Source: Pseudooceanicola sp.
GTDB lineage: Bacteria; Pseudomonadota; Alphaproteobacteria; Rhodobacterales; Rhodobacteraceae
NCBI RefSeq assembly: GCF_029213205.1
Contig: NZ_JARGNH010000009.1
Location: 1-64,000, forward strand
Length of the DNA: 64,000 bases
Reading direction: 5' to 3'
Shown here one piece after another: positions 55-8,606 of this stretch. Each line of letters opens with the position of its first letter. Positions within the stretch are counted from its first letter, which is position 1. Both the position numbers and the translations under genes were made by a program. Under the pieces are notes generated by a model, which was not told the origin of the DNA, did not search any database, and saw nothing but the letters and a program-made list of their open reading frames with translations.

Positions 55-121
55 GGAGTACTGGTTTGACGCCCCGGATCGAGCCCGTGATGCGGCGCAA
101 ACCTTGCGTGCCGGGCTTTAA
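55..121 (+). pseudogene. 3' remnant of the gene upstream of mcrC, probably mcrB, cut by the IS
   Basis: A reading frame runs from the IS edge to a TAA that overlaps the mcrC start in a TAATG junction, which is a normal translational coupling for mcrB-mcrC. Only about 21 codons remain, reading EYWFDAPDRARDAAQTLRAGL. Further upstream in the same frame a TGA lies inside the IS end at 50-52. I infer that this is the C-terminal tail of McrB, the AAA+ GTPase partner of McrC, because of position and coupling. The tail itself is too short to identify. Confidence 0.4.
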
Positions 122-1305
122 TGGCTACCACGATCCCCTTGCGCAATATCTGGCTGCTATTTTTGTACGCGGCCGATCTGGTGCAATTCAAAGGGCGATT
201 TGACCATCAGGTCGAGACCGCCCCGGATCTTCCGGATCTAGTGGCGCGCCTCTTGACCCATGTGGTCGAGGAACGCCTGAGCCGGAACCTATCCCGCGGA
301 TACCGCCCCCAAGTGGCTACCCTGTCGCGGGTGCGGGGGCGTATTGACATGCTAGAAACCACGACCCGCCGATTGATGGACCGCGGTCGCATTGCCTGCC
401 GCTTCGAAGAGCACACGATGGACACGCCCCGCAATCGGCTGGTCAGGGCAGCCCTCGCGCAGCTTGCGAACCGCGTTGCGGATGATCTGGTTGCGCATCG
501 CTGCCGCCAACTGTCCGGGGATTTTACCCGCATGGGCGTTGTCGGCCCCCGCCCCTCCTGGGCAGAAGTGGCCAGTGACCAGATTGGTCGCAATGAGGCC
601 GCCGACCGTTTGATGGTGGCACTGGCCCGGATGGTGTTTAACACGATCATCCCGACAGAGGAGCCCGGGGAGGTATCAGGCGCCCTGCCTGACAGCACCG
701 ACCACCTGATCCGCCGCCTATTCGAGCGGGCGGTGGGCAACGCCCTGCGCCTTGAACTGGAGCCTCAAGGTTGGTGCGTGACTCAAGGCAAACGCCTTTC
801 ATGGCCGGTCACGGCCGCATCCCCCGGGATCGCCGCGATCCTGCCCGGAATGCAGACCGATATTGAGTTGAACCATGTCGAAACGGGGCGCCGAATTGTG
901 ATAGACACGAAATTCACGGCCATCTTTACAGCGTCCAGCTATCGAGACCGGATTCTGAAAAGTGGTTACCTCTACCAGCTTTACACCTATCTGCGCAGTC
1001 AGGAGCGGCCGGGCGATCCCGCTAGCTTAACCGCCGTCGGGATGCTGCTGCATCCGCAGACAGGGGGATCAGTCGATGAAGGGGTAACAATCCAGGGACA
1101 CCGAATGCGCTTCAAGACGGTTGATTTGGCAGGCGATCCTGGAGAGTTCGAGGTGAGCTTACGGGGGGTGTCTCGGAATGAGGGCTCATTAGCCGTAGAT
1201 CGCTCAGTTCCCCTTGGCGATGGAAGCCAACCTTTCTTCCGCGCGCTCTGCGCGCGCTTCGGCTTTCTCAAGGATACCTTGAAGGTCAGAGACTCTTTGT
1301 TCTAG
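121..1305 (+). CDS. mcrC: McrC-like subunit of a modification-dependent restriction system
   Basis: The N-terminus, IPLRNIWLLFLYAADL, is the typical McrC opening. A PD-(D/E)XK nuclease core lies near residues 247-264, with D247 (MQTDIEL) and the VIDTKF strand supplying D262 and K264. McrC is the nuclease subunit that works with the McrB GTPase to cut DNA carrying modified cytosine. The start is fixed by the TAATG overlap with the preceding remnant and by in-frame stops upstream. With mcrB apparently destroyed by the IS, this copy is probably non-functional unless an McrB is supplied elsewhere. The last roughly 33 codons overlap the convergent kfrA-like gene, so the native C-terminus may have been replaced. 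Confidence 0.85.
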   Translation: MATTIPLRNIWLLFLYAADLVQFKGRFDHQVETAPDLPDLVARLLTHVVEERLSRNLSRGYRPQVATLSRVRGRIDMLETTTRRLMDRGRIACRFEEHTMDTPRNRLVRAALAQLANRVADDLVAHRCRQLSGDFTRMGVVGPRPSWAEVASDQIGRNEAADRLMVALARMVFNTIIPTEEPGEVSGALPDSTDHLIRRLFERAVGNALRLELEPQGWCVTQGKRLSWPVTAASPGIAAILPGMQTDIELNHVETGRRIVIDTKFTAIFTASSYRDRILKSGYLYQLYTYLRSQERPGDPASLTAVGMLLHPQTGGSVDEGVTIQGHRMRFKTVDLAGDPGEFEVSLRGVSRNEGSLAVDRSVPLGDGSQPFFRALCARFGFLKDTLKVRDSLF

Positions 1306-2036: not shown

Positions 2037-3068
2037 ATGGCTAAGTATTACGTAACCCGTGGCGCGGGCGGATTCAATTCCGCGCTTCCCTTCACCTTCA
2101 CCCTGTCCCCGCTTGTCCTCGCCCGCGCGATGACTCGCGCGCTGGTCGATCTGGCCGCCGCCGAGCGTGAGCTGGGCGATGAGACCGGCTTCGACCCGGC
2201 CCTCTCCGCCTATCGGGCTGCCGTCGATGAGGCCCGTACCCGTGTCCTCGAGCACTGCGAGGCGCTGATCGCCCATGCCCCCGCCACGCTGCAGGCAGCC
2301 TCCCTTCAGCGGGTCGCGGTGCTGGTCGATACCGTCATCCGGTCCGGGGATCCGGTTGAGGTGGCCCGCATCCGCGCCAGTCTTCAGGTGGCACGCTGGG
2401 TCTGGCAGCTGCCGACTACCGTGCCGGGCCACGCCTTCTATAATGCGGCCCTCGATGCCGCGCTGGACGCACTCGGTGGTTATATTGACGGGCCTGACGA
2501 ACCGCAGGACACTCCGCCGGCGGCAGGGTCCCAGACGGTGATGGAGGCCGGTGCGGCGGTGGAGAGGGACGATCATTCGATCCCCACCGCCCATACGGAA
2601 GTCAGCCGCGCCTTCACCGCCCTCGTGCACGGTCTCGAGGCCTGTGTGGCTGCCGAGCGGCGGATCCAGCGCGACGTTGTGGGCGACGATGTGTTTGCCC
2701 CGGAGGTCGCCTCGGACCTGGCTGCGGCAGAGGCAGCCCGCGAGGATCTTCTCGTCCGGCTCGCAGAGGTCACCGCGCTGCCGGAGCAGCGCGGTCTCGA
2801 CCGTCCGCTGCAGCTGTTGGCGAAGGGGCTTCATGCGCTTGTTTCGGTGGAGGATGACGACGACCGCCAGCATATGCATGCAGTCATGGCGGGGAGCGCC
2901 GACCTGTTGCTTGTTCGGGGGGATGCGCCCGCGGTTCGCTGGGTGCGCGCGGCGCAGCGGCGCTTCCTCGACGGCGTCGCACGGCTCATGTCGATGGAAG
3001 ACTTCGGAGGAAGGGGAGCCGGGCCGGACGATGACGGCACGGACGACGCACCCGGGCTCGCGGCCTGA
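2037..3068 (+). CDS. Unrecognised helical protein with apparent internal duplication; cassette gene 1
   Basis: I do not recognise this 343-residue protein. It opens MAKYYVTRGAGGFN and is then predominantly helical and rich in Ala, Leu and Glu. Two halves resemble each other: residues near 35-75 (ALVDLAAAEREL...FDPALSAYRAAVDEAR) and near 200-240 (HGLEACVAAERRI...FAPEVASDLAAAEAAR) share a pattern, joined by an acidic, Pro-rich linker. The C-terminus is acidic and disordered-looking. The ORF track starts at 1911, but ATG 2037 has GGAG upstream and a sensible N-terminus. It leads a forward set with the nuclease-like gene (65 bases downstream) and the AAA-protease gene, suggesting a joint role. 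Possible roles are an adaptor or target-recognition subunit; this is inference only. Confidence 0.7.
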   Translation: MAKYYVTRGAGGFNSALPFTFTLSPLVLARAMTRALVDLAAAERELGDETGFDPALSAYRAAVDEARTRVLEHCEALIAHAPATLQAASLQRVAVLVDTVIRSGDPVEVARIRASLQVARWVWQLPTTVPGHAFYNAALDAALDALGGYIDGPDEPQDTPPAAGSQTVMEAGAAVERDDHSIPTAHTEVSRAFTALVHGLEACVAAERRIQRDVVGDDVFAPEVASDLAAAEAAREDLLVRLAEVTALPEQRGLDRPLQLLAKGLHALVSVEDDDDRQHMHAVMAGSADLLLVRGDAPAVRWVRAAQRRFLDGVARLMSMEDFGGRGAGPDDDGTDDAPGLAA

Positions 3069-3087
3069 GTCGCTCCGGACCTCGCCA

Positions 3088-3110
3088 GGGGGCCACGGCC
3101 CCCTTTCCCT
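3088..3110 (+). terminator. GC hairpin between cassette genes 1 and 2
   Basis: GGGGGCC-AC-GGCCCCC is followed by TTTCCCTCTT. The stem is strong, but the run after it is only partly T, so it is more likely an attenuator or 3'-end-stabilising hairpin between cassette genes than a full terminator. Confidence 0.4.
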
Positions 3111-3133
3111 CTTCCCGAACAATGGAGGCGCGC

Positions 3134-3706
3134 ATGCCCCAACAGCCCTTCCTGCCCGGCATCATCTTGCCGAGCCGTCCCGCCGAGCCCCGCGACGCCC
3201 GTAACGCGCTGGCGGCCTACCCTGACATGCCGATCGAGGATCTCTGCCGCTATGCAAAGTGGCTGGGGGCCTCCGCCGAGATGACCGTCGACGCCCTGTT
3301 CTTGCGTCTCGGTGAGCGCATCTTTCCGGCACCCGAGCACGAGCGGCATGATCGCGTGTGGATCCTGCCCGACGGCACGCCGCTGCGCATTCAGGTCAAG
3401 ACGCGCCACAGTCAGGCCGCGAACGGATCCTTTATCTTCAACCTCCGACAGCGCTCGGCCCGCGGGTCGACCGGCAAGGGGCCGTATCTGCCCGAGGATT
3501 TCGACCTGCTTGCCATGGTCATTCTGACCGAAAACGTCGTCGCCTTCACCGCCGACTGGCAGACGCGACATGTCATCCAGCCGAGTGAGATTCCGGCGCT
3601 TCGGCGGCACCCCCGTGCCACGTTGGACGCCGCCCTTATGCGCTTGGGCCATGCCCAGGCGATCCCGGGTCACGTCGACGGGCCGGACCTCAATCTCGCC
3701 GCCTGA
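3134..3706 (+). CDS. PD-(D/E)XK nuclease-like protein; cassette gene 2
   Basis: This 190-residue protein carries a compact restriction-endonuclease-fold signature: a helix (MTVDALFLRLGERIF), then D73 in RHDRVWILPDG, then the strand LRIQVKT giving Q87-x-K89, and later a strand pair (YLPEDFDLLAMVILTENVVAF). The arrangement resembles the PDDEXK_11-type group I intron-associated family, in which the middle acidic residue is often replaced by Gln as here. ATG 3134 is preferred over 3122 because GGAGG at 3124-3128 sits correctly before it. It lies between the unknown cassette protein and the AAA-protease. DNA cleavage is inferred from the fold; loss of the acidic residue leaves activity open. Confidence 0.6.
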   Translation: MPQQPFLPGIILPSRPAEPRDARNALAAYPDMPIEDLCRYAKWLGASAEMTVDALFLRLGERIFPAPEHERHDRVWILPDGTPLRIQVKTRHSQAANGSFIFNLRQRSARGSTGKGPYLPEDFDLLAMVILTENVVAFTADWQTRHVIQPSEIPALRRHPRATLDAALMRLGHAQAIPGHVDGPDLNLAA

Positions 3707-3792
3707 CCGACGGGTCTTTCCACCCCCCAGATCCTTCCTCGGTCCGCCCCCGGCGGTGGGCCGACTGCCCCCCTTTATTCCGGAGTTCTCCC

Positions 3793-6204
3793 ATGACGCA
3801 GCCCACATCCTCCTTCTCGACCCCGCCCGCCACTATCCCGCTCACCGATACCCCGGACTGGGCCACCTTCGCCGCCGAGATCCGGAACGGCCTGCTGTCC
3901 CGGGCCGCCGCATGGGCAGTCACCGCCTACACCGCTTCCGGCCCCACCGAGGATGACGACGCCGAGGCCTCCGTTGCGACGGCCACCGACGCCGGCAACG
4001 CTGAGAAGGCGACAGTCGACACCGGCACCCGGCGCGATACGACTCTGGCGGACGCCGCCCGGTCCAGCGCCCAGAGCGACGGATGGCAACTCGATGATCT
4101 GCTCGATCAGATCGAGGCTGATGCGGCCATGAGTGAGTTCCCCGACGCGTTGCCCTTGGTCCCGGAGGACGCTACGGCACCGCGCAAGCGCTACCGCCTC
4201 CGCCCGGAGGCCGCACTGGCCGTGGTCCGCATCGCCAAGACCTTCGGCTCGGCCGGGGCGATGGGCCGGGCGCTCGGCGCGCCGGGCGCTGTGACCCTGA
4301 TCACCACCGCAGATCCCGCGCTCGACGCGCATCTCATCCAGCTGATCGAGCACATTGCCCAGCCCAACGCGCTCTGGCCGAAGGGCGCGGCGATCCCCGT
4401 CGTGCTGAGTGCCGAGAAGGCCGCGCCCAGCAAGCTGGATGCATCCGAACCGGCTGTCAGTGTGCTCTGCGGCTCGCTGCGCTTGGCGCTGGAGACCCGC
4501 CGCCCGACCGTCCTCATCGCCCCGGCGGCCGGAACCGCGCCGAAGGCGCTCCGGGCGCTTCAGCCTGAGATGGTCGCGCTTGCGCCCCTCGACCGCGAGA
4601 TGCTGGCGCAGATCCTCGGCGATGCCTATCCGGAGGCAGAGGTCCCCGGCGCGGCGCTCACCGCGCTGCCCGCCAACGCGCCGCTCGCGCGGCTCACCCC
4701 CGGCGACCTGCTCCTCGCCCTGCGCTGGCCCGACCCGAAGCGCGCCGTCACGACGCTGGCCGCCGCGCTGGCCCCCGAAGAGACCCAGACTGGGCCGGGG
4801 CTGGCCGCATTCCCGCTGCCCGAGGATGTCCGCGCACCGCTGGAGCAGCTCGTCGAGGATCTGCGGGCATGGAAAGCGGGGGAGATCCGCTGGCGCGACG
4901 TGTCGCGTGGGGTGCTGCTCGCCGGCCCTCCGGGGACCGGCAAGACCGAAACGGCCCGCCAAGTCGCACGCGAGGCGGGGATCGGCATGATCGCCGCGTC
5001 GCTCGCCACATGGCAGGCGCGTGGGGAGCGGTCCTCAGATTTGCTCCGGGCGATGAAGGCGGATTTCGCGCAGGCCGCCAGCGAGGGGCCGTGCATCATT
5101 TTCGTCGATGAGATCGATGTTTTCGGGGACAGAAACCGCCGGGATCACAATGCCTCCTGGACGGAATATGTCGTCGGCAGTCTGTTGGAGTGCCTTGACG
5201 GCTATGCGGCTCAGGAGGGGGTCGTGTCCATGGCCGCGACCAACCATGTCGATAGGGTGGACCCCGCCTTGCGCAGGCCCGGGCGTTTTGACCGCATCCT
5301 CCATCTGCGCCACCCAACGGTCGAGCTGATGCCGCGAGCGCTGCGCTGGCAGGCCTGGCCCGACCTGCGCGACGCCGACTTGACCGCCATCGCCGCGCAG
5401 GCCGTCGGCATGAGCGGCGCCGACGTCGCGGGCCTGGTCCGCGCTGCCCGGGCAACGGCCCGGCGGGCGGGTCGCCCACTCAGCGTGGAGGATCTCTCCG
5501 CGACCCTCGCGGAAATTCGGCCCCCCATGCCGGAGGCTGTCCGCTGGCAGGTGGCGGTTCACGAGGCCGGTCACGCCGTGGTCGGTGCCGCCACCGGGGT
5601 CGCCACGCCCCGCGTGCTCGCCCTCCAGGGCGATGGCGGCGTCACCCATGCGGAACGGCGCGTCATCCACCAGCGGCGGTCCGAACTGGAAGCCGCGCTG
5701 GCCCTCGACATGGCCGGCCGCGCGGCGGAACACCTCGTATTCGGCGAAGCCTCCGCCGGGGCTGGCGGCGCCTCGGACTCCGACCTCGCTCGGGCCACGA
5801 CCATGGCTATCTCGATGGAAGCCGCCTGGGGGCTCGGGGACCGGCTTACGTGGTGCGGCGACCCCGAGACCATCGCGCCCCGCCTGCGCCTCGACCCGCC
5901 GCTCGCGGCCCGCGTCGAGGACCACCTCCGCCGCGCCGAAGACCGGTCGCTGGGGATCCTGCAGGCCCAGAGGCCGGTTCTCGAAGCCATCGCCACCGCG
6001 CTCTGCGACCGGGGCCTGCTGCAGGGGGCTGCGCTGGAGGAGCTGATTTCCCAGGTGAGGCCGGAGGCGGCACAGCCCACGCAAGGCGAGCGGGCGCTGG
6101 AGGTCCAGAAGGCACCGGACCAGTCGAAGTCTGAAGACGAACAGGCGGACAACCGGGATACGGACTGGTCCGTGCCATACCGGCCCCTCGATCGCGCCGC
6201 CTGA
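3793..6204 (+). CDS. Soluble AAA+ ATPase fused to FtsH-like M41 zinc protease; cassette gene 3
   Basis: The 803-residue protein has a variable N-terminal part (1-330) with no membrane segment. Residues about 135-320 look like a degenerate AAA module (PAAGTAPKALRAL in place of a P-loop). An active AAA+ domain follows, with Walker A GPPGTGKT (378-385), Walker B CIIFVDEID (about 434-442) and second-region-of-homology motif RRPGRFDR. A peptidase domain has HEAGH (590-594) and the third-ligand region SDSDLARAT (D664). This is the FtsH order, but FtsH is membrane-anchored and this protein is not. It should unfold and degrade protein substrates in the cytoplasm. As the last cassette gene, it may process or be regulated by the two upstream proteins (inference). 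It ends in acidic, low-complexity sequence. Confidence 0.85.
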   Translation: MTQPTSSFSTPPATIPLTDTPDWATFAAEIRNGLLSRAAAWAVTAYTASGPTEDDDAEASVATATDAGNAEKATVDTGTRRDTTLADAARSSAQSDGWQLDDLLDQIEADAAMSEFPDALPLVPEDATAPRKRYRLRPEAALAVVRIAKTFGSAGAMGRALGAPGAVTLITTADPALDAHLIQLIEHIAQPNALWPKGAAIPVVLSAEKAAPSKLDASEPAVSVLCGSLRLALETRRPTVLIAPAAGTAPKALRALQPEMVALAPLDREMLAQILGDAYPEAEVPGAALTALPANAPLARLTPGDLLLALRWPDPKRAVTTLAAALAPEETQTGPGLAAFPLPEDVRAPLEQLVEDLRAWKAGEIRWRDVSRGVLLAGPPGTGKTETARQVAREAGIGMIAASLATWQARGERSSDLLRAMKADFAQAASEGPCIIFVDEIDVFGDRNRRDHNASWTEYVVGSLLECLDGYAAQEGVVSMAATNHVDRVDPALRRPGRFDRILHLRHPTVELMPRALRWQAWPDLRDADLTAIAAQAVGMSGADVAGLVRAARATARRAGRPLSVEDLSATLAEIRPPMPEAVRWQVAVHEAGHAVVGAATGVATPRVLALQGDGGVTHAERRVIHQRRSELEAALALDMAGRAAEHLVFGEASAGAGGASDSDLARATTMAISMEAAWGLGDRLTWCGDPETIAPRLRLDPPLAARVEDHLRRAEDRSLGILQAQRPVLEAIATALCDRGLLQGAALEELISQVRPEAAQPTQGERALEVQKAPDQSKSEDEQADNRDTDWSVPYRPLDRAA

Positions 6205-6327: not shown

Positions 6328-8361
6328 TCAGAACAGTCTGGGTAAGCGTTCGATCGCATCCGCTTTTATGCGTACACTGACATCGTCACGATACGTTTGT
6401 TCGTTTATCTCGCTGTAGGGCCTTTGCTCCTGCCCCCGGAAAGCATGTCCGGTGATGTCGTATCTGGTCACGTCAAGCACATCGGGATCGTGCAGCAGGG
6501 TGTCATTAACATAGTGTCGCAAGCTGTGCATGCAGAGCTCTCGTGGATTCCCACCCAGCGCGATCTTCAGCGCCTTCCGCCACATGTCGTCGATGCTTTC
6601 GCCAAATTTTTCCACGCCCTCAGCGGGATCAAGGCTTAGGCTGCGTGCGCTGCCCGACCGCGGCTTCGGGATAACATCTGGGAACAGAAACGTTTCGCCG
6701 TGTGCCTGCATGCGCCCGGCATGTTCCATCAGACCCAGTTCCACCAGGTGCGAGTGAATCGGAACGAACCGCGTGAGTTTCTTTCGCGGATCCGTTGTCC
6801 CTTCTTCCTCGCCTTTGAGCCCACGCCAGGCGTTAGACTGAATGATGATTGTCGGGATGCCCTCGATCGTCACGATATCAGAGGGCAGGAGGCCAGCGAT
6901 CTCGGCTCGGCGTGAGCCCGTGTATGCGAGAATCAGGGGCACCCAATAGCGAGAGTCTTTCTTGATCATCTCGCCAGGAACATGCCGGCGGCCTGGGCTC
7001 TTGTGGCCTTGCCATAGCGGATGCCCAAACACCGTACGGACTTCATCGAGACGAAACACGGACCGACGTTTGTGATCGAGGACCCGACCACTTGTTTTCG
7101 GCCGCAGAGATGCGAGTTCAGGCTTGAAGCGGAGGGCGTGTCCCTCGGAAACGGCGCGGCCCAAAAAAAGTTCAAGAGATTTCAGGTGACGTTTGATTGT
7201 TCCAGAGGCCAGTCCAACCTGATCGCGTGGCATGTTGGCCGCGATCGCCTTCACCTGGCCATAGCTACGCCGCTGATCATATACTGACCGTAGGAAGGTC
7301 TTCGGGATTTCCTTGAGAGCGTCCGCGTATCGCCGCAGGTGCCACTGCTCGACTTCATCGATCGTTTGAATGCCATTCACAAAACAGAAAAGACGCAGAT
7401 CAGCGGCGCGCTGCTGCGCCACGCCGTCGGATAGGCCTTCCTGTCGGGCATATCTCCAGAATATCCCGGCGATGTCGCGAGTGTAGCTTCCGTCCCCCGG
7501 TTCAGGTGCCGACTGGGCCGCTGCGAATTGTTTCATCAGTTCGCCTACCGTAAATGTCCCATCAATCAAATCGACGCCGTGGGATATAGGCGCGAGTTGT
7601 TTGGTGCACTTGATAGGTGTGGTGGTTGTATCGGGTTCGAGTGTCAGTTGATCCGCCATGACGACCGGTTCAACTTGTTCAGAGTTTATTGACGTCAGCA
7701 GCGCATCAGCTTCCGACAGATAGGTTTCTTTTTGACGTTTAGTGATGCTGGATAGGGCTGCCAGCCTGACCTTTAGATCCGCCTCCCGTACTTGGGCGTG
7801 ATGCTCCATCGAAGCGAGGGTCGCACCGGTGGTTTCGGTAAATCTTTTCACCATCGTCCGTCGGGCCTCTGGTGACATGATCCGAGCATATTCGATTTGA
7901 TAGATGCGAAGCATATGCTCCACCTGCGCCGGCGTCCAAGCCGGATCGATTCTATGGGGGGGAAATGTCGAGTGAACACCGTCTTCCAGCAGGGTCAGCA
8001 CTGCGAGCTTTTGGATATCCCGAAGCCACGCACCGTCCTGAAGGCCGCGCCCCGTCATCCGCTCAATCCGGACCTTGCGATGAAATTCCGGCAGCACCTG
8101 ACGCAGGCTGGTGGCCATGTATTTCGAGACCACCTCTTCAGGGAGGGCAGGAGAGAGCAGGATCAGCGACGACATCATTCGATCGAATTCCACAGTGATA
8201 CGTCCCGTTAATATAGACGCTGAACGCTCATCTGTGGTGCCCAGAGGGATGACCACTGGTCCGATTTTTGGGGATAACCCCGGTATCCGTCTTCGAAAAT
8301 AGAAGCGGTGTCCCTGACGATAGAGGTACTTACCGGTTGTTGGGTGGTCTTGTGTCCGCAT
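6328..8361 (-). CDS. Large tyrosine recombinase (site-specific integrase)
   Basis: This is a phage/island-type integrase of 677 residues if started at ATG 8361; the ORF track extends to 8463, but that adds 34 unconvincing residues. The N-terminus (GKYLYRQGHRFYFRRRIPG) matches the DUF6538-type arm of alphaproteobacterial island integrases. The catalytic tyrosine-recombinase residues are visible in order: Arg in YTGSRRAEIA (about 484), HSLRH giving H-x-x-R (about 612-615), His in GHAF (about 639) and the nucleophile Tyr in RPYSE (about 649). An AGGG ribosome site precedes the chosen start. The gene lies beside the 3' end of tRNA-Asn, the usual layout for tRNA-targeting integrative elements, and probably mobilises the 0-8.5 kb island. 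Confidence 0.9.
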   Translation of the reverse strand: MRTQDHPTTGKYLYRQGHRFYFRRRIPGLSPKIGPVVIPLGTTDERSASILTGRITVEFDRMMSSLILLSPALPEEVVSKYMATSLRQVLPEFHRKVRIERMTGRGLQDGAWLRDIQKLAVLTLLEDGVHSTFPPHRIDPAWTPAQVEHMLRIYQIEYARIMSPEARRTMVKRFTETTGATLASMEHHAQVREADLKVRLAALSSITKRQKETYLSEADALLTSINSEQVEPVVMADQLTLEPDTTTTPIKCTKQLAPISHGVDLIDGTFTVGELMKQFAAAQSAPEPGDGSYTRDIAGIFWRYARQEGLSDGVAQQRAADLRLFCFVNGIQTIDEVEQWHLRRYADALKEIPKTFLRSVYDQRRSYGQVKAIAANMPRDQVGLASGTIKRHLKSLELFLGRAVSEGHALRFKPELASLRPKTSGRVLDHKRRSVFRLDEVRTVFGHPLWQGHKSPGRRHVPGEMIKKDSRYWVPLILAYTGSRRAEIAGLLPSDIVTIEGIPTIIIQSNAWRGLKGEEEGTTDPRKKLTRFVPIHSHLVELGLMEHAGRMQAHGETFLFPDVIPKPRSGSARSLSLDPAEGVEKFGESIDDMWRKALKIALGGNPRELCMHSLRHYVNDTLLHDPDVLDVTRYDITGHAFRGQEQRPYSEINEQTYRDDVSVRIKADAIERLPRLF

Positions 8362-8480
8362 CGCGCCCTGCTTTCCGGGCGGTCCGAACTCATGAGCCAG
8401 AGAACACGAGGGCGTTGTGACAGACGTGTGCAAGTTTTGTGCAACGCCTGTGAAAGAAAACACGCCGTAAATCCAAAATT

Positions 8481-8542
8481 CGCCGGAGCTAAGTTTGGAA
8501 GTCGTAGCTTTTCAACACCTTATAGGTGATATGGCTCCGGCG
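8481..8542. repeat. Inverted copy of the tRNA-Asn 3' acceptor end at the island boundary
   Basis: CGCCGGAGC at 8481-8489 is the exact reverse complement of GCTCCGGCG at 8534-8542, which is the tRNA-Asn acceptor end plus discriminator. CACCT-TAT-AGGTG, a short 5-base-pair hairpin, lies between them at 8516-8528. Read on the tRNA strand, the two arms could fold into a terminator-like stem just after the tRNA, or mark recombinase binding. Both readings are inference. Confidence 0.4.
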
Positions 8543-8606
8543 GTAGGGATCGAACCTACGACCAATTGATTAACAGTCAACTGCTCTACCGCTGAGCTAC
8601 GCCGGA
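8532..8606 (-). tRNA. tRNA-Asn(GTT)
   Basis: The reverse strand reads TCCGGCGTAGCTCAGCGG... with a full cloverleaf: acceptor TCCGGCG/CGCCGGA, D arm, anticodon loop CTGTTAA giving anticodon GTT, T arm GGTTCGATCC, discriminator G and an encoded CCA. Length is 75 bases with CCA. Its 3' end abuts the integrase-bearing island, so it is the likely attachment site. Confidence 0.95.

Follow-up and report, generated by a model that had tools for sequence, protein, structure and literature searches.

The IetAS anti-phage system consists of a separate AAA protein and an adjacent gene for a subtilisin-type (S8) protease. In the FtsH-containing MoxR-vWA ternary conflict systems, effector genes lie near an FtsH-type protein that has a dead N-terminal AAA domain and an active AAA domain; a MoxR ATPase and a vWA protein are indispensable to these systems (Kaur et al. 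2020, eLife, PMC7159879), which often include ubiquitin-like parts and caspase-like or radical-SAM effectors and are known chiefly from deltaproteobacteria, actinobacteria and planctomycetes. Here we describe a three-gene locus that, like IetAS, pairs an AAA+ ATPase with a protease. It lies in positions 1 to 64,000 of contig NZ_JARGNH010000009.1 of Pseudooceanicola sp. (Rhodobacteraceae; assembly GCF_029213205.1), a 64,000-nucleotide stretch referred to below as the window, and encodes a helical protein (HEL), a predicted nuclease (NUC) and an ATP-dependent protease (AAA-M41). Quite possibly, although we advance it tentatively, the three form a mobile modular cassette in which the nuclease would be controlled by HEL and by proteolysis, and whose likeliest role would be to defend the host and the element against phages or competing plasmids.

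An earlier note on this DNA had placed three same-strand genes of 343, 190 and 803 residues, with gaps of 65 and 86 bases, between an mcrC/kfrA region on one side and an integrase on the other. The open reading frames (ORFs) at 2037-6204 and the family matches of their neighbours bear this out: HEL has 343 amino acids (aa), counted from the ATG that aligns with its homologues, and is separated by 65 bases from NUC (190 aa), which in turn lies 86 bases from AAA-M41 (803 aa). The features of the three genes are as follows.

2037..3068, + strand: HEL (gene 1), all-helical, with two copies of a five-helix domain by profile and AlphaFold2
2598..2990, + strand: second domain of HEL (residues 188-318), the copy common to single-domain relatives of 160-180 aa
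3057..3065, + strand: C-terminal LAA of HEL, resembling the genome's own tmRNA degradation tag ANNNRAPMALAA
3134..3706, + strand: NUC (gene 2), PD-(D/E)XK nuclease of the PDDEXK_5 / I-Ssp6803I type
3278..3400, + strand: predicted catalytic residues of NUC, E49...D73...Q87-x-K89, from family alignments
3793..6204, + strand: AAA-M41 (gene 3), soluble FtsH-like ATP-dependent zinc protease of 803 aa, by Pfam and Foldseek
4204..4770, + strand: N-terminal alpha/beta domain of AAA-M41 (residues 138-326), probably a dead AAA domain, lacking Walker A
4924..4947, + strand: Walker A motif GPPGTGKT of the active AAA domain of AAA-M41, with G378, G381, G383 and K384 invariant in 49 sequences
5560..5574, + strand: HEAGH zinc-protease motif of AAA-M41, invariant in 49 sequences, with the third zinc ligand D664 at 5782-5784

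Of the order's 395 genomes, 20, from 14 of its 140 genera, contain relatives of NUC; nearly all of these genes follow a HEL relative and directly precede AAA-M41, with gene order and strand conserved. Trio loci were also drawn from Roseovarius and Sulfitobacter plasmids and from genome records of Roseovarius, Frigidibacter, Cereibacter and Salibaculum, and a contig scan with a five-row NUC alignment reached near relatives only. With duplicates removed, this co-occurrence check shows the PDDEXK-type trio at about 34 distinct loci. The N-terminal domain specific to AAA-M41, sought with its own profile, is present in 69 of the order's 395 genomes, which represent 41 of 140 genera, and the cassette frequently has integrases, recombinases and relaxases as neighbours. 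In the wider class the same profile matches only 6 of 385 genomes, the window's own included; HEL, sought in 385 wider-class genomes, was found only in the genome of the window.

Only HEL and AAA-M41 are constant, a point beyond the reach of the earlier note; the nuclease between them can be exchanged. On plasmids of Paracoccus and Rhodobacter, the gene between HEL and AAA-M41 encodes a zinc-ribbon protein with a GIY-YIG nuclease domain instead of NUC (PHROG 681, endonuclease, E = 3e-7), and the six such slot proteins that were compared are all mutual homologues (E < 1e-63). Among further Rhodobacteraceae AAA-M41 loci, the GIY-YIG gene stands immediately before AAA-M41 in 47 of 56; a profile detects HEL in 38 of these 47, and the remainder mostly have a small same-strand ORF in its position. 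Altogether, HEL and AAA-M41 flank a GIY-YIG protein at no fewer than 40 loci. More rarely, the slot is taken by a 512-aa protein, PD-(D/E)XK-like by inspection, for which Pfam gives no firm match (locus L168), by a 275-aa protein of another family with a PD...ExK-like stretch, also by inspection (L197), and, in Rhizobiales and relatives, by metallophosphoesterases. In a maximum-likelihood tree of 49 proteases, the GIY-YIG label must have changed at least four times across branches with strong support. A tree of 85 proteases, built by a quicker method, gives 10 changes of nuclease type, at least five of them on supported branches, against 22 or more with shuffled labels, and the nearest relatives of the window protease include both nuclease types. 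Because GIY-YIG proteins take the same slot and the nuclease type changes repeatedly on the protease tree, we read these sequences as one system, in which HEL and AAA-M41 are constant and the nuclease is a plug-in.

In two genomes, a PDDEXK and a GIY-YIG version of the cassette are both present, with closely related proteases (G222, loci L037/L161; G350, loci L038/L166). In Rhizobiales and relatives, a related AAA-M41 is paired with the metallophosphoesterase at six loci (L034, L035, L093, L095, L097, L195), which probably represent a sister system; at three Rhizobium loci, a conserved gene of 198-205 aa also precedes the protease.

The protease is the most readily classified of the three proteins. 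AAA-M41 matches the Pfam families AAA (E = 1e-26) and Peptidase_M41 (E = 9e-15, over the cut-off), and 49 relatives show no variation in Walker A, Walker B (D439/E440), HEAGH or the third zinc ligand D664, and little or none in the arginine fingers R495/R498, in agreement with the AAA+ domain and HEAGH zinc-protease site reported earlier. Its best Foldseek matches are all FtsH-type. As no stretch resembles a membrane helix (highest 19-residue hydropathy 1.26), its earlier description as soluble holds. The NCBIfam FtsH_fam model gives a score of 177 bits against a cut-off of 600, and two other M41 genes of the genome, which score far higher, are presumably its own FtsHs; in PADLOC, only shared ATPase cores are matched. 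Residues 138-326 form an alpha/beta domain without Walker motifs that follows an AAA-like fold order in the AlphaFold2 model. A profile of this domain matches the protein's own active AAA domain weakly (E = 0.001, probability 21%) and in register, its end aligning with the sensor-1/arginine-finger region. This modest support suggests that residues 138-326 are probably a dead first AAA domain. The closeness in fold of the M41 core to FtsH might also point to cargo for protein quality control or stress tolerance, like the extra FtsH copies on heat-shock islands, with the nuclease incidental. We consider this very unlikely: AAA-M41 has no membrane anchor, and such cargo leaves unexplained why a nuclease lies directly before AAA-M41 at almost every locus and why it has been replaced repeatedly.

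NUC matches Pfam PDDEXK_5 (PF11645) with E = 2.5e-5, slightly under the curated cut-off, which a relative (L194) exceeds; in PADLOC it has only a weak homing-endonuclease match (E = 0.02). Its family profile matches one solved structure, the homing endonuclease I-Ssp6803I (PDB 2ost, E = 4e-4), over a stretch that contains D73, Q87 and K89; these three residues are invariant in an alignment of 22 relatives, and E49 is conserved in at least 90%. The nuclease-fold signature claimed earlier is thus confirmed by both matches: NUC belongs by sequence to the PDDEXK_5 / I-Ssp6803I fold, and catalysis is predicted. In one subgroup, the catalytic glutamate is replaced (GAAVVDS in place of GExLVDS; L050, L057) or its region is absent from the called ORF (L054, L059), and these nucleases may be inactive or rely on another residue. 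Apparent stops in the nuclease of L092 proved to be ambiguous bases in that record, and the HEL frameshift at L092 is hence not trusted.

The match to I-Ssp6803I raises the question of whether NUC is a mere homing endonuclease inserted beside a protease gene. Lone NUC relatives do occur in phages. However, the order HEL-nuclease-AAA-M41 is kept at dozens of loci while NUC diverges to about 30% identity, and elsewhere a different nuclease fills the same slot. An isolated homing endonuclease is contradicted by these recurrence data, and we have rejected it as scarcely credible. In a T7-like phage, Escherichia phage 64795_ec1 (L066), a short NUC relative annotated as hypothetical adjoins the DNA polymerase gene and is probably a homing endonuclease.

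HEL has no family match in Pfam, NCBIfam, PADLOC or PHROGs, in line with the earlier remark that its family was not recognised; its profile has no match in the PDB, and a Foldseek search with its model returned nothing beyond generic bundles of helices, the best with E 0.28. Within the window protein, the family profile finds two matches, at 2037-2417 (E = 8e-9) and 2562-3068 (E = 2e-43), and AlphaFold2 predicts five-helix bundles at residues 25-150 (low confidence) and 188-318 (high confidence, pLDDT of about 70-97 when averaged in blocks of 10 residues), with a disordered tail at either terminus. The window HEL is thus made of two tandem copies of a domain present once in most relatives (160-180 aa). 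HELs are highly divergent (13-46% identity), yet joined by one profile. At L175, a tandem pair of HEL-like genes (183 and 235 aa) precedes a GIY-YIG gene and parallels the fused duplication of the window.

The window HEL ends in GLAA. An LAA end is found in 13 of 41 HELs versus 4 of 693 neighbouring genes, and an AA end in 20 of the 41 versus 30 of the 693; in a second HEL set, mostly non-overlapping with the first, the AA end occurs in 15 of 45 versus 11 of 445 neighbouring genes. When HELs are clustered at 40% identity, a majority -AA end marks 13 of 33 clusters (p ~5e-11 versus background). Since -AA ends are enriched and the genome's own tmRNA tag, ANNNRAPMALAA, also ends in LAA, it is plausible that the HEL C-terminus acts as a degradation tail. 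In the window's clade NUC ends in LAA too, and the protease ends in RAA or FAA.

Such a tail would also suit a three-part toxin-antitoxin cassette that stabilises plasmids or islands, with the nuclease as toxin, HEL as labile antitoxin and AAA-M41 as a dedicated protease that removes HEL, phage sensing playing no part. Many loci are plasmid-borne, divergent KfrA or ribbon-helix-helix regulators accompany some of the cassettes, and loss of the protease is tolerated, all of which would fit. However, toxin-antitoxin modules seldom bring their own AAA+ protease, and the patchy presence and nuclease swapping suit defence at least equally. We therefore regard a purely stabilising cassette as possible but somewhat doubtful.

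The surroundings of the trio in the window comprise the following features.

121..1305, + strand: mcrC, an NCBIfam McrC equivalog over the cut-off, at the contig edge
1204..1788, - strand: kfrA, divergent (KfrA_N, E = 1e-18), a possible regulator of the cassette
6328..8463, - strand: integrase-like gene containing DUF6538 (E = 1e-5, below the cut-off), beside tRNA-Asn
8532..8606, - strand: tRNA-Asn (gtt), by ARAGORN and Rfam, the likely integration site and right edge of the island

The window begins at the contig end with mcrC, followed by kfrA, the trio and an integrase gene abutting tRNA-Asn. The tRNA-Asn directly beside the integrase gene suggests that the cassette is carried by a genomic island inserted at this tRNA, whose left end lies off the contig, as the contig starts at window base 1. 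Because mcrC stands at the contig edge and its mcrB partner would be expected beyond it, a McrBC restriction system probably shares the island. KfrA adjoins the trio on the opposite strand in 3 loci, lying just upstream in 2, and a ribbon-helix-helix gene holds the divergent upstream position in 6 other loci. Immediately upstream of the trio, six Roseovarius and Sulfitobacter loci (L031, L045, L069, L071, L072, L077) have a pair of conserved genes, for proteins of about 150 and 468 aa that belong to no Pfam family.

In the first set of loci 10, and in the second 9, have a serine recombinase downstream of the cassette, and resolvases and, at several loci, relaxases are among the neighbours. Together with the integrase beside the window trio, and with both nuclease types coming from families that homing endonucleases use, this invites the idea that nuclease and protease serve the mobile element itself, by aiding its transfer, controlling its integration or excluding related elements, and that HEL is their adaptor. 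Recombinases, relaxases and replicons vary by locus, however, which implies that no single element type is served, and we hold this function to be unlikely. A narrower candidate, HEL as a MobC or relaxase accessory, was rejected because the neighbours vary between loci.

For the cassette read as a defence system in which proteolysis controls a nuclease, we propose the following scheme. AAA-M41 would form a ring-shaped ATP-dependent protease, whose probably dead first AAA domain and N-terminal tail would select substrates. HEL would bind the nuclease and restrain it, and would itself be a substrate of AAA-M41 (or ClpXP), recognised by the LAA-like C-terminus and the disordered ends. Once infection or a competing element upset the balance, HEL would be lost, or the complex would be activated by the protease, and the nuclease would then cut the DNA of the invader or of the cell.

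Natural losses bear on the scheme. At L068, L099, L101 and L052 an intact nuclease is kept and AAA-M41 is missing or truncated; HEL persists with the nuclease at the first three, and at L052 the nuclease accompanies a truncated protease and HEL was not seen. Two of these four loci are within one strain, Paracoccus jeotgali. The converse loss is found at L046, where protease and HEL are retained and the nuclease is broken. Because the nuclease survives at four loci without an intact AAA-M41, the protease is not needed as a safety catch that keeps the nuclease harmless, and the losses fit a protease that activates better than one that acts as antitoxin.

Several observations weigh against the proposed scheme. 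The same four loci show that the protease can be dispensed with, and L052 in particular, with its nuclease and no visible HEL, leaves HEL unproven as the restraint. The -AA ends are frequent among HELs, but some HELs lack them. Agreement between the HEL and AAA-M41 trees is weak (rho 0.19; HEL-NUC 0.44, NUC-AAA-M41 0.47). Defence genes nearby speak for the scheme: PADLOC matches among 90 neighbours comprise 50 families, including CBASS cyclase and E2 genes, a restriction enzyme, PDC-S01/S06 and NsnA, versus 3 generic ones in 43 ordinary chromosomal window genes. This control, however, is small, chromosomal and unmatched for mobile islands.

If the defence reading is correct, a conflict system without a name is present in about one in six Rhodobacteraceae genomes, and its plug-in nuclease would be governed by regulated proteolysis and not by a second messenger or a stable antitoxin, and the tmRNA-like tail would tie translation rescue or ClpXP load to immunity. 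A bolder proposal, which we hold more loosely, is that the cassette represents a new class of immune or addiction system, where a sensor-inhibitor HEL with a tmRNA-like tail and a soluble protease with a dead first ring would arm any of several unrelated nucleases, proteolysis being the switch. The cassette also offers a genomically common soluble M41 protease, probably with an inactive first ATPase domain, that could be purified without membranes.

How, then, does the cassette compare with described systems? Its AAA-M41 may share the dead-plus-active AAA layout of the MoxR-vWA ternary systems (fold order and a weak profile match, E = 0.001), but its effectors are nucleases, whereas the ternary systems often have caspase-like or radical-SAM proteins; none of the MoxR, vWA, ubiquitin-like or effector genes of those systems is part of the cassette. 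Neither MoxR nor vWA occurs among the six window genes scanned or the Pfam families of the 90 neighbours, therefore the resemblance is to one component and does not indicate membership. The AAA domain of AAA-M41 matches IetA models with E = 1e-20, over the core only (model positions 93-301 of 374). IetAS has a separate IetA ATPase (about 370 aa) and an S8 protease, whereas here ATPase and M41 protease are fused in one protein of 803 aa; with only the AAA core matching, other flanking domains, and an S8 gene absent from both the trio and its immediate neighbourhood in the window, membership of IetAS was rejected. A separate AAA/S8 pair near the cassette of L095 is probably IetAS.

With FtsH and the i-AAA and m-AAA proteases, AAA-M41 shares the AAA and M41 core, HEAGH, the third zinc ligand and the arginine fingers; it differs in having no membrane segment, in its N-terminal domain resembling a dead AAA, and in its location on a mobile island. 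NUC has the fold family and predicted catalytic residues of I-Ssp6803I and the PDDEXK_5 endonucleases, but stands outside any intron and keeps a set place among three genes. Modules of the type II toxin-antitoxin and toxin-antitoxin-chaperone kinds resemble the cassette in having a small helical protein beside a nuclease and a tail like a degradation tag, whereas the cassette has its own ATP-dependent protease in the operon and a HEL without a recognisable DNA-binding domain or similarity to known antitoxins. No named system with this gene set was found in PADLOC-DB 2.0.0, NCBIfam, Pfam, PHROGs or the literature searched, consistent with the earlier note, which knew of none. The note had also suggested an undescribed defence or plasmid-maintenance system: recurrence and the lack of a named match speak for an undescribed system, and the defence or plasmid role is still one that we infer from sequence. 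Altogether, the locus is a recurrent modular cassette, apparently unnamed: its enzymes belong to known families, and what is new with respect to the libraries and literature searched is the way they are combined, with a HEL that stays and a nuclease that can be swapped.

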